Shown: in pieces, positions 16,743 through 59,817 of the stretch
Layout: each line of letters begins with the position of its first letter
Position numbering within the stretch: position 1 is the first letter of the stretch
NCBI RefSeq assembly: GCF_004382795.1
Contig: NZ_SMSG01000003.1
Location: forward strand, 186,001-250,000
Source: Cumulibacter soli
GTDB taxonomy: Bacteria; Actinomycetota; Actinomycetes; Mycobacteriales; Antricoccaceae
DNA: 64,000 bases
Direction: 5' to 3'
Made by a program: the position numbers and the translations under genes
Notes under the pieces: model-generated
Told to the model about the DNA's origin: nothing
The model's database searches: none
What the model saw: the letters and a program-made list of their open reading frames with translations, nothing else

Positions 16743-19505
16743 GTGGCAGGCAAGGCCCGAGTACACGAGCTGGCTAAAGAGCTCGGTGTAACGAGCAAGC
16801 AAGTTCTCGCGAAACTCAGCGAGATGGGGGAGTTCGTCAAGAGTGCGAGCTCCACCGTGGAAGCGCCCGTAGCGCGCAAACTCAAAGAACAGATGGCCGG
16901 TGGCGATAAGCCGAGCGGTTCGCGTCCGGCCCCGAAGTCGGCACCCAAGGTTGAGGTGTCCGGTCCGGTGCCGACGTCGATCGTGCCCAAGCCTGGACCG
17001 AAGCCCGGTCCGGCGCCGAGCCCGGCTCCCGCCGCCGCTGCGCAGGCCCCGCCCGCGGAACAGGCGCCGCCGGTAGAGGAGAAGCCGGCTTCGGCACCCG
17101 CACCGCGTCCGCGTCCGGCCGGAGGGAACAACCCGTTCGGGGTCGGCCAGGCCGCGTCGCGACCGCCGACACCGCGCCCGCCAGCACCGCGACCGAGCCC
17201 GGGAAGCGTGCCGAACGCGCCGCGGCCTGGCGCTCCGCGACCCGGTGGTCCGCGTCCAGGCCCGGGCGGCCCACGCCCGGGTGCCGGCGGTCCCCGCCCC
17301 GGTCCTGGTGGTCCACGACCTGGTGGTCCGCGTCCAGGCCCGGGCGGCCCACGCCCAGGCGCTGGTGGTCCGCGTCCTAGCCCCGGTTCGATGCCGTCGC
17401 GCCCTGCGCCCGGCCTGAGCCGGCCCGGCGGCGGTGGCGGCGCTCGGCCCGGTGGTGGCGGCGGCGGTCGTCCCGGCGGCGGTGGCGGTGGATTCCGTCC
17501 CGGTGGCGGTGGTGGCGGCGGCGGATTCCGTCCCGGTGGCGGCGGAGGTCGCCCCGGCGGCGGTCGCGGTCGCGGCGGTACCGCGGGCGCGTTCGGTAAG
17601 CCGGGTGCGCGCGGCCCGGTCCGTGGGCGTAAGAGCAAGAAGCAGCGGCGGCAAGAGTTTGATCAGATGGATGCGCCGTCCATCGGTGGCGTGCAGGTTC
17701 CTCGCGGTGACGGCTCCACAGTGCGGCTGTCGCGTGGCGCATCGCTGACGGACCTGGCCGAGAAGATCAACGCCTCCCCAGCATCGTTGGTGACCGCGTT
17801 GTTCCACCTCGGTGAAATGGTCACGGCGACTCAGTCAGTTAACGACGACACCCTCGAACTGCTCGGAGCCGAGCTGAACTTCAAGATCGAGGTCGTGTCG
17901 CCGGAAGACGAAGACCGCGAGCTGCTCGACGATTTCGACATCACCTTTGGCGCCGACGCCGATGCGGAGAACCTGGTGGCGCGTCCGCCGGTCGTCACCG
18001 TTATGGGTCACGTCGACCACGGCAAGACCAAGCTGCTGGACGCCTTGCGTCAGGCAGATGTCGCGGGCGGCGAGTCGGGCGGCATCACGCAGCACATTGG
18101 TGCCTACCAGATCACGACCGAACATGAGGGCGCCGAGCGTGCCTTGACGTTCATCGACACCCCCGGTCACGAGGCATTCACCGCGATGCGTGCCCGTGGC
18201 GCCAAGACGACGGACATCGTCATCTTGGTGGTGGCTGCTGACGACGGTGTAATGCCGCAGACGGTTGAGGCGATCAACCACGCCCAGGCGGCGTCGGTCC
18301 CGATCGTTGTCGCGATCAACAAGGTCGACAAGGAGGGCGCGAACCCGGAACGCATCCGCTCGCAGCTCACTGAGTACGGCCTGGTCGCCGAGGAGTACGG
18401 CGGCGACACGATGTTCGTAGAGATCTCGGCGTTGCGCCGGCAGGGCCTTGATTCCCTGCTGGAGGCAGTGTTGCTGACAGCGGACGCGTCTCTGCAACTC
18501 GAAGCCGACGCGGCGATGTCGGCCCAGGGCGTGGCGATCGAGGCGCACCTGGACCGCGGTCGCGGTTCGGTGGCCACGGTTATTGTGCAGCGCGGTACGT
18601 TGCGGGTCGGCGATTCGATCGTCGCCGGTGACGCGCACGGACGCGTACGTGCGATGGTCGGCGATTCGGGGGAGAACCTCACCGAGGCGGGCCCCTCTAC
18701 GCCCGTGCAGGTGTTCGGCTTCACCTCCGTACCTGGCGCCGGTGACACGTTCCTGGTCGTCGATGAGGATCGGGTTGCTCGCCAGATCGCCGAACGTCGT
18801 CAGGCGCGCGAACGCAACGCGCAGTTGGCGAAGTCGCGTCGTCGCATCTCGCTGGAAGACCTCAACAAGGCCCTCGAAGAGGGCAAGGTCGAGAATCTCA
18901 ACCTGATCATCAAGGGTGACAACTCCGGCACCGTGGAGGCGCTGGAAGACGCCCTGTTGAAGATCGAGGTCGGCGATGAGGTCTCGTTGCGGATTATCCA
19001 CCGGGGCGTGGGAGCAGTCACCGAGTCGGACATCGACCTGGCGACGGCGTCCGACGCGGTCGTGCTTGGCTTCAACGTGCGCACCCAGGGCAAGGCCACC
19101 GAGCGAGCGAACCGCGAGGGCGTCGACGTTCGCTTCTACTCGATCATCTACCAGGCGATCGAGGACGTCGAGAACGCGCTCAAGGGCATGCTCAAGCCGG
19201 AGTACGAAGAGATCGCGCTCGGTACCGCCGAGATCCGTGCGGTGTTCCGCTCGAGCAAGTGGGGCAACATCGCCGGCTGCATGGTGCAGTCGGGCCTGAT
19301 CCGTCGCAACGCCAAGGCGCGGCTCGTGCGCGATGGCGCTGTCGCGGCGGACAACCTGACGATCGCGTCGTTGCGCCGGGAGAAGGACGACGCCACCGAG
19401 GTGCGGGAGGGTTTCGAGTGCGGTATCAGCCTCGGTTCCTACAACGACATCAAGGAAGGCGATCTCATCGAGACGTTCGAGATGCGCGAGAAGCCGCGCG
19501 CTTAG
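16743..19505 (+). CDS. infB: Translation initiation factor IF-2
   Basis: IF-2 is the GTPase that places fMet-tRNA on the 30S subunit. The 920-residue protein starts at GTG after AGGAGA with the IF2-N helical domain ([20 protein letters not shown]). A long Pro/Gly/Arg-rich linker covers about residues 55-300. A second IF2-N-type region is at about 318-375. The G domain has GHVDHGKT at 422-429, DTPGHEAF, and NKVD. Domains II-IV end at KPRA. The linker is typical in kind for actinobacteria and contains a 26-codon duplication (see repeat). A hairpin follows the stop. Confidence 0.97.
17244..17356 (+). repeat. In-frame 26-codon direct duplication in the IF-2 linker
   Basis: A 35-nt stretch at 17244-17278 recurs identically at 17322-17356, an offset of 78 nt (26 codons). 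It encodes Gly/Pro/Arg units such as GGPRPGPGG. The whole stretch 17218-17600 is built of these units, so copy number may vary between strains. Confidence 0.75.
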
Positions 19506-28137: not shown

Positions 28138-28209
28138 TCTGCTGATAGCAGCGCTGCGCACAGCAGCACGAGCAGCGATCAGCACCTCAGGGCGTAGAGG
28201 CTGGGCGGT

Positions 28210-28824
28210 ATGAGTGAACAACAACGCCCCGCGTCGGGGCTCGACGACGCGATGTATCAGGCGCTGTTCGACGTGCGCACCCTCGTGCTCGGTGAACCGC
28301 TGGAAGACTGGAACAGCAACCGAATCGTGCACGGGCTGATACTGCTATCGGCGGACGATCCGTCCGCCGATATCAGGCTGCTGATCAACTCACCCGGCGG
28401 ATCGGTCCCCGGCATGTTGGCGATTCGCGACACGATGCACGCGATCAGCAACGACGTGGCCACCATCAACCTCGGTATGGCCTACAGCGCCGGGCAGTTC
28501 CTGCTCAGCGCCGGCGCCCGCGGGAAGCGCTACATGATGCCGCACGCCAAGGTGCTGCTCCATCAGGGGTCGGCCGGTATCGGCGGTACGGCGATGGACA
28601 TCGCGATTCAGGCCGAGGATCTGCGTGACACCCGGGACACAGTGCTGTCGTTAATTGCCGAGGACACCGGCCGGGAGGTCGAGGTAATCGAGCGCGATTC
28701 GCGACGTGATCGTTGGTTCGGCGCCACGGAGGCGTTGCGATACGGGTTCGTCGATCACATCATCGACCATCTGGGCGAGGTGCTGCCGTCACGACGTCGC
28801 AGCGGAATGGTGGCGCCGACATGA
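28210..28824 (+). CDS. clpP3: ClpP-family serine protease subunit, triad intact
   Basis: A 204-residue ClpP paralogue. Ser93 in GMAYSAGQFLLSAG, His118 in VLLHQG and Asp167 in DSRRDRWFG keep the E. coli spacings (Ser-His 25, His-Asp 49), so this subunit should be catalytic. The N-terminus is short, without an obvious propeptide. It overlaps the next clpP by ATGA. The pairing with a second clpP and a PopR-like regulator resembles the clpP3-clpP4-popR locus of Streptomyces rather than the essential clpP1-clpP2 operon beside tig/clpX. The symbol is by analogy. GAGG is about 10 nt before the ATG. Confidence 0.85.
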   Translation: MSEQQRPASGLDDAMYQALFDVRTLVLGEPLEDWNSNRIVHGLILLSADDPSADIRLLINSPGGSVPGMLAIRDTMHAISNDVATINLGMAYSAGQFLLSAGARGKRYMMPHAKVLLHQGSAGIGGTAMDIAIQAEDLRDTRDTVLSLIAEDTGREVEVIERDSRRDRWFGATEALRYGFVDHIIDHLGEVLPSRRRSGMVAPT

Positions 28825-29417
28825 GCAGTTACACAATCCCGTACGTCACCACTGCCAGCGCCGCCGGCGAACGGACGACGGACATCTACAGTCGGCTGCT
28901 GGCCGACCGAATCATCTACCTCGGAACGGCTATCGACGATGGCGTCGCCAACGCGGTCATCGCGCAATTGATCCATCTAGAGTCAGAAAGCCCCGACCAG
29001 CACGTGGATCTCTACATCAACTCACCCGGCGGGTCGATTCCCGCGATGCTGGCGATCTACGACGCGATGCAGTTCATTCGACCACAGGTGCACACCACTT
29101 GTGTCGGGCAAGCTGCTGCGACGGCTGCCGTGCTACTGGCCGGCGGTGCGCCTGGTCGGCGGGCGAGCCTGCCGCACGCCCGGGTAGTCATTCACGCTCC
29201 GGCGGCCGAGGGGCGCGGAAGCATCCCGGACCTAATTCTGGAGGCCGAGGAGGTCGAGCGGGTGCGCTCGCTGCTGGAAGGACTCCTCGCACAGCACACC
29301 GGTCGCACGCCGCAGCAGGTGCGCAGCGACACCGAACGCGAACTGGTGTTGTCGGCGCCCGACGCGGTGAATTACGGCGTTGTCGACGACATCATGTTCG
29401 CCCGTCCCGAGCCGTAG
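28821..29417 (+). CDS. clpP4: ClpP paralogue lacking catalytic Ser and Asp (ClpR-like)
   Basis: A 198-residue ClpP homologue with the normal fold markers (YINSPGGSIPAMLAIYDAMQ, handle helix, YGVVDDIM). The nucleophile position in GQAAS is Ala100 (GQAAATAAVLL), and the position 49 residues after His125 is Glu174 instead of Asp. Only His125 of the triad remains, so it is predicted to be catalytically inactive and to act as a structural or gating partner in a mixed barrel with the upstream subunit. The Ala codon is GCG, one base from Ser TCG, but the independent Asp->Glu change argues against a sequencing error. The symbol is by analogy. Confidence 0.85.
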   Translation: MSSYTIPYVTTASAAGERTTDIYSRLLADRIIYLGTAIDDGVANAVIAQLIHLESESPDQHVDLYINSPGGSIPAMLAIYDAMQFIRPQVHTTCVGQAAATAAVLLAGGAPGRRASLPHARVVIHAPAAEGRGSIPDLILEAEEVERVRSLLEGLLAQHTGRTPQQVRSDTERELVLSAPDAVNYGVVDDIMFARPEP

Positions 29418-29425
29418 GGCGCTCG

Positions 29426-29725
29426 TTACGCGGCGAGGCAGGTCGGTGCCGAACCGAGACGCTGCGCGGCGCGCGCAGTGAGGTCGGCCAGGCGCACCTC
29501 AAGAGCTCCGGCCACCGCCGCGAGGACCTCCGAGGACGGATCCTTGCGGCCCCGTTCGACCTCGGACAAATACTGCGGCGCTATACCTGCTCGGCGCGCG
29601 ACATCGGTGATCCGTTCGCCTCGTCCGTGGCGCTGTGCACGTAGTTCGGCGCCGACCGACTCGCGCCACAGCGGTTCGGGATCGGCACCGTCACGACGTT
29701 CAGGGAAATACAGGACGTTCGACAT
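29426..29725 (-). CDS. popR: PopR-like XRE-family regulator with C-terminal LAA
   Basis: A 99-residue DNA-binding protein with an XRE helix-turn-helix (about residues 25-82; ITDVARRAGIAPQYLSEVER carries the turn and recognition helix). It is closely similar to ClgR encoded at 59.5 kb (YLSE[VI]ERGRK in both). It ends ...TCLAA. Streptomyces PopR activates clpP3-clpP4 and is itself degraded by ClpP through two terminal alanines. Location tail-to-tail with the clpP pair and the LAA end support that assignment, but it is made from motif and context only. TACGCT lies 6 nt before the ATG. Confidence 0.8.
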   Translation of the reverse strand: MSNVLYFPERRDGADPEPLWRESVGAELRAQRHGRGERITDVARRAGIAPQYLSEVERGRKDPSSEVLAAVAGALEVRLADLTARAAQRLGSAPTCLAA

Positions 29726-59496: not shown

Positions 59497-59817
59497 TTGC
59501 TGCTTCTCCGCGAAGTCATCGGAAGCAATCTGCGCGCGCACCGCGAGGATCAGAAGCGCTCGCTGCGCGACGTGTCGGCGTCCGCACGGGTGAGCCTGGG
59601 ATATCTCTCGGAAATCGAACGTGGCCGTAAGGAAGCCTCGTCCGAATTGCTCGCCTGCATCTGCGATGCGCTTGAGTTGGAGCTCGCAGATTTGCTGGAC
59701 GATGCGTCCACCGACCTCCGCCATGCGGCGTTCATCGAATCGGGCAAAGAAACGTCGGCCGCCGCCGAGGTACGCCTGGTATTCGAGCAGGACGATCGCG
59801 AGGTCGTCCCGGTCTAG
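59497..59817 (+). CDS. clgR: ClgR-like XRE transcriptional regulator
   Basis: A 106-residue regulator with an XRE helix-turn-helix ([20 protein letters not shown] followed by [20 protein letters not shown]). In actinobacteria ClgR activates clp protease and, in mycobacteria, psp genes, and it lies between cinA and pspA as here. The start is TTG 59497, with AGGAGGT 4 nt upstream; the frame extends into cinA otherwise. It ends VVPV, so unlike the PopR-like protein it lacks the terminal Ala pair that marks Clp-degraded relatives. The next gene begins 12 nt later. Confidence 0.88.

Follow-up and report, generated by a model that had tools for sequence, protein, structure and literature searches.

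Predicted non-catalytic ClpP4-like subunits in the actinobacterial clpP3-clpP4/popR backup system, viewed from a locus of Cumulibacter soli

The clpP3-clpP4/popR locus and its surroundings

The window analysed here, a stretch of 64,000 nucleotides from the genome of Cumulibacter soli, carries two coupled ClpP genes on its forward strand. The first is a clpP3-like gene (28210-28824, 204 aa) for the predicted catalytic subunit, with S93, H118 and D167 encoded at 28486-28488, 28561-28563 and 28708-28710. The second, a clpP4-like gene (28821-29417, 198 aa), encodes the predicted non-catalytic docking/gating subunit, in which the corresponding residues are A100 (GCG, 29118-29120), H125 (CAC, 29193-29195) and E174 (GAA, 29340-29342). 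The two reading frames share a four-base ATGA overlap, the second starting at 28821. Both products belong to the S14 ClpP fold (Pfam PF00574; P4 217 bits and P3 190.6 bits, cut-off 20.2), and this fold was recovered in the AlphaFold models of both (pLDDT 88.6 and 88.9), the best PDB match of the P4 model being M. tuberculosis ClpP1P2 (TM 0.91). The genome holds two further ClpPs, encoded on another contig by a canonical clpP1-clpP2 pair whose triads are intact.

In an ungapped alignment A100, H125 and E174 of P4 occupy the Ser, His and Asp columns of E. coli ClpP, and the Ser-His-Asp triad of an active peptidase is thus missing. Translation and alignment, supplemented by the codons for P4, established that the residue numbers given for both proteins in an earlier note on this DNA are exact. 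A misaligned active site was ruled out by the ungapped alignment, the AlphaFold model and the PDB match. Judged from its sequence, the window P4 is almost certainly non-catalytic. Thr101, which carries the nearest hydroxyl, was considered as a substitute nucleophile and rejected: S-H-D relatives have it too, and in E. coli ClpP its place is taken by the Met next after the nucleophile.

Convergent to the pair lies a popR-like regulatory gene (29426-29725, reverse strand), whose 99-aa product ends in ...PTCLAA. It is an XRE-type paralogue of ClgR, assigned to HTH_3/HTH_31 by Pfam and with ClgR as its nearest NCBIfam model, below the cut-off; it is distinct from ClgR itself, since a better ClgR match is found at about 59500-59772 of the window (forward strand). 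The latter scores highest in the genome against the NCBIfam ClgR model, also below the cut-off. A C-terminal degron is reported for Streptomyces ClgR; the frame at 59500-59772 ends in ...REVVPV, not in Ala-Ala, and the degron may be absent there. A popR-like homologue is encoded downstream and in opposite orientation in 206 of the 218 loci with enough flanking sequence, and 195 end in -AA.

Upstream of the operon a tandem palindromic box of PopR type is located at 28138-28167 (forward strand), with the two halves TCTGCTGATAGCAGC and GCTGCGCACAGCAGC, the full tandem palindrome being TCTGCTGATAGCAGCGCTGCGCACAGCAGC. It matches exactly the 28-base core CTGC-N5-GCAG-N2-CTGC-N5-GCAG, for which 0.04 matches per window are expected by chance when up to two mismatches are allowed. 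The layout of this box scored at least 13/16 in 180 of 228 regions upstream of clpP3P4 vs 1 of 684 shuffled controls, and the window box scored 16/16. A second copy, with two mismatches, is present at 18456-18483 (forward strand). The PopR site of S. lividans has the same layout as the window box (PMC9775585). In S. lividans the clpP3P4 operon is turned on once PopR is no longer degraded by ClpP1P2, and either clpP1P2 or clpP3P4 is enough for viability, one of them being needed (PMC9765437).

Phylogenetically, the window pair falls into P3-like and P4-like clades that are separate from canonical ClpP1 and ClpP2. Taken together with the convergent PopR-like regulator and the tandem palindromic box, this placement identifies the locus, at the level of sequence, as an actinobacterial clpP3-clpP4/popR backup system. 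The gene order, the convergent popR ending in Ala-Ala, the tandem box and the separate clpP1P2 are all as in S. lividans, and by analogy the window operon would normally be silent and conditional on the failure of ClpP1P2. The pair described in the earlier note is real, but its reading there, right in direction, was too narrow: the pair is not an isolated one and belongs to a backup system in which predicted loss of P4 catalysis is widespread and convergent.

Triad states across the P4-like clade

The loci were gathered by similarity to the window P4 and by ClpP family searches, which yielded 338 loci with 560 distinct ClpPs. The P4-like clade comprises 230 distinct proteins, 163 of which depart from S-H-D and 67 of which keep it, proportions that describe this similarity-based sample with its uneven species coverage and not all actinobacteria. 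Ser or His is lost in 155, which are hence predicted to be dead, and in eight more both are kept while Asp is changed. The most frequent altered states are AHD (69), SGD (27), GHD (12), WHT (9), AHE (8) and FHN (6), followed by EHN (6), EHH (5), SHN (5), ADD (3), GHE (3) and others. The partner subunit shows nothing of the kind, with S-H-D in 248 of 248 distinct P3-like proteins, and the triad is likewise retained by 47 of 49 members of the canonical ClpP2 clade. A P3-like gene lies directly upstream of 228 of 229 P4-like genes, and the four-base overlap seen in the window recurs in 153 of 227 pairs.

The replacements are typical of lineages: the nucleophile is Trp in many Nocardioides, Phe (with Asn as third residue) in Arthrobacter and Paenarthrobacter, Gly in Agromyces and Ala in many families. 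In each of the 28 Streptomyces ClpP4s found, Gly stands in place of His, beside an intact ClpP3; the Streptomyces ClpP4 is thus likewise predicted to be dead, His being lost there and Ser and Asp in the window P4. As far as sequences can tell, triad loss in P4 is widespread and convergent in actinobacteria, Streptomyces included. A quirk specific to the window was ruled out by this survey. Chance or a sequencing slip is excluded, since dozens of relatives carry replacements of this class and Ala together with Glu recurs in several other genera. Conservation of the Ala/Glu combination, a point raised in the earlier note, is nevertheless only partial, as the sister species (L006, 78% identical) and a congener (L007) keep Ser and Asp in P4. 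The Ala/His/Glu state of the window P4 is therefore recent or labile within the genus.

Three unusual cases were met in the survey. Paenarthrobacter sp. PH39-S1, with six ClpPs in its genome, has two clpP3P4 pairs (L062 and L067) at separate places on a single contig (NZ_JASISR010000015.1), both P4s being Phe/His/Asn. In Corynebacterium sputi DSM 45148 a P4-like protein (L074:4001-4588) has all three residues replaced (Ala/Ala/Gln) and adjoins an intact P3. One Streptomyces genome (G365, locus L191) encodes an extra ClpP2-like copy with His changed to Asp (S-D-D), which falls outside the P4 clade.

How often did the losses occur, and in which order? On a tree built with the triad columns left out, the dead or alive state changed at least 8 times and the nucleophile letter at least 12 times, and 16 losses are required if loss is irreversible. 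The S-H-D P4s of L006 and L007 are nested in a clade of mostly Ala P4s, so that the nucleophile would have been lost repeatedly or have reverted; the forks of the tree near the window are weak, and this bears on whether the Ser of L006 is ancestral or reverted. A change at the third triad position is seen in 39 of the 155 P4s without Ser or His vs 8 of the 75 that keep both, and Glu at this position is restricted, in the P4 clade, to proteins that lack Ser or His. For these reasons the Asp to Glu change of the window protein probably followed the loss of Ser, and the two changes, which the earlier note had counted as independent, are better regarded as successive. A different order is suggested by the sequences of family f32 (L224, L236, L128, L210 and relatives), whose P4s form a series of SHN, EHN and EHH states; there the Asp change may have come before that of Ser to Glu. 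Glu at the nucleophile position, as in the EHN and EHH proteins, is unusual.

Docking features and a proposed asymmetric core

The features by which a ClpP ring receives its ATPase are distributed between P4 and P3 in the opposite way to the triad. With pocket positions given in E. coli precursor numbering, Tyr76 is kept in 228 of 230 P4s and an aromatic residue (Phe/Tyr) at 96 in 201 of 230; residue 96 is His in 26, in which docking may differ. P4 proteins share a conserved N-terminal motif, MSsYTIPyV..RT..GER, which P3 lacks; the N-terminus of P3 is short and unconserved. The window P4 retains both the N-terminal hairpin and the pocket Y/F, and in its AlphaFold model strands 8-13 and 16-21 form an axial hairpin, whereas the model of the window P3 begins directly with a helix. 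In P3 proteins residue 96 is mostly Leu or Ala, and residue 76 is aromatic (Tyr, Trp or Phe) in about three quarters; the window P3 has Leu there, and its pocket is degraded, with R/L/A at the positions of E. coli Y74/Y76/F96.

A similar division of labour was measured in the actinobacterial ClpP1P2 of Streptomyces and Mycobacterium, which is likewise bicistronic. In Streptomyces, ClpP1 S113A abolishes activity while ClpP2 S131A leaves it full, and the ATPase pocket, indispensable for use of the ATPase, is carried by ClpP2 (PMC9765437); ClpX and ClpC1 of M. tuberculosis dock solely on the ClpP2 face (PMC4416901). Both subunits of ClpP1P2 keep the triad, whereas at the present locus the docking subunit lost it and the catalytic subunit lost the hairpin and pocket features. 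By analogy P4 would work like the ClpP2 half of ClpP1P2 minus its vestigial active site.

Since these complementary features match the measured behaviour of ClpP1P2, it is probable that the locus encodes a conditional backup core, in which P3 forms the cutting ring and P4 a dead docking/gating ring, under the control of PopR. We infer the inactivity of P4, the separation of P3 and P4 into rings of their own and docking on P4. P3 would supply the peptidase sites, and P4 would join it as a catalytically dead ring whose axial N-terminal hairpins and hydrophobic pockets would dock ClpX or ClpC; the motor would then feed the substrate via the P4 face to the active sites of the P3 ring. The genome contains three Clp-type ATPase genes, one beside clpP1P2 that is apparently ClpX and two that are, by length, apparently ClpC and ClpB. 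No dedicated extra Clp ATPase for P3P4 was found in the genome, so the general ClpX and ClpC would serve this core. Following the S. lividans literature, a functional ClpP1P2 would clear PopR via its C-terminal Ala-Ala, and upon failure of ClpP1P2 PopR would build up and switch the operon on. In some hosts P4 may be catalytic or its Ser may have reverted, considering the S-H-D members of the clade, the sister species included. The earlier expectation of a mixed core in which just one kind of subunit is catalytic is thus supported by the predicted properties of the pair.

We also lean, with less assurance, towards the wider view that the backup Clp of actinobacteria has repeatedly become asymmetric, one ring docking and gating and the other cutting, through inactivating mutations that each lineage acquired on its own, the Streptomyces ClpP3P4 included. 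Above all, the analysis points to a predicted non-catalytic subunit, clade-wide and repeatedly evolved, in a backup Clp core, present also in the Streptomyces model system; if the prediction is true, this would be a natural Clp core whose catalytic sites all lie on one side. It is a long-open question why two ClpP subunits are kept in many bacteria and what each of them does, and independent natural inactivations in P4, with none in P3, make it directly testable. If the docking half is a pseudoenzyme, models of activity, inhibitors and activators that assume fourteen sites would be wrong for ClpP3P4. This protease is the reserve that lets Streptomyces survive the loss of ClpP1, and such losses are carried by spontaneous ADEP-resistant Streptomyces mutants (PMC12607617). 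A search of the open-access literature, with subscription papers outside its scope, found no report of a triad-less or defective ClpP4, in Streptomyces or elsewhere, and no priority is claimed.

Alternative readings and selection on P4

The dead subunit could instead be distributed as in ClpR-type complexes, P3 and P4 alternating within each heptamer so that P4 dilutes the active sites. Cyanobacterial and plastid ClpR forms with ClpP3 a similarly obligate-looking partnership of an active and a triad-less subunit, and the Synechococcus ClpP3/R ring is reported to mix 3 catalytic with 4 non-catalytic subunits (PMC4673316); moreover, stoichiometry lies beyond what sequence can tell. The window P4, with two of three triad residues replaced, shares with ClpR the lack of a triad. 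It differs from ClpR in that it groups beside actinobacterial ClpP2, which counts against ClpR descent in a tree that was built without ClpR sequences, and in that the replacements vary by lineage, some members being S-H-D. For both reasons P4 was not filed as ClpR: the earlier description of a likely inactive, ClpR-like subunit holds for the predicted inactivity and is an analogy as regards ClpR. The closest solved relatives, actinobacterial ClpP1P2, are described as having one ring of each kind (PMC4416901), and P3, without the axial hairpin and usually without the pocket, better fits a separate distal ring. Alternating rings are thus unlikely, and a P4 docking/gating ring has the best support.

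Less likely still is a regulatory or decoy role for P4, in which it would enter ClpP1P2 and capture the ATPase or lower the catalytic content. The retained docking features would suit such a role, as would an identity of about 45% to the canonical ClpP2 of the same genome. The almost invariable position of P4 directly downstream of an intact P3 argues against it, and so does the viability of S. lividans on clpP3P4 without clpP1P2, for which an active P3P4 core is needed (PMC9765437).

Residual catalysis by P4, by way of a substitute nucleophile or of a triad that is completed upon assembly, has very little probability. His is kept in the window P4 and in most dead P4s, the eight proteins with only Asp changed could work in this way, and in Listeria, where one of two paired ClpPs likewise departs from the canonical triad, ClpP1 (N172, Asn where Asp is expected) gains activity only within the heterocomplex (PMC9765437). 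Ser and His are retained in Listeria ClpP1, however, whereas the window P4 has no nucleophile; in most dead P4s the position is taken by Ala, Gly, Trp, Phe or Glu, of which Trp and Phe would fill the site, and the Streptomyces ClpP4 keeps Ser but has Gly in place of His.

The dead P4s are under purifying selection, as is indicated by Nei-Gojobori estimates of dN/dS, which in these GC-rich genomes can show only that. Median values for dead P4 vs partner were 0.175 vs 0.209 in Streptomyces, 0.142 vs 0.114 in the Trp group and 0.103 vs 0.107 in the Phe group, and in every dead group with usable pairs P4 stayed well under 1 and near its active partner; between the window P4 and that of the sister species dN was 0.157 and dS 0.90. 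A pseudogene was ruled out by these values, the intact reading frames and the conserved overlap. That P4 is degenerating towards loss is hardly credible, even if the intact triad of the sister species makes the change a recent or labile one in the genus, since full-length reading frames, the overlap, the N-terminal motif and the pocket are conserved, selection is like that on the active partner, and the dead state lasts across all sampled Streptomyces P4s and all sampled Agromyces and Nocardioides subgroups. Mean column entropy was 1.08 bits in dead P4s vs 1.01 in those with Ser and His intact; around the lost Ser it was 0.86 vs 0.50, and this looser neighbourhood is as expected of an abandoned site.
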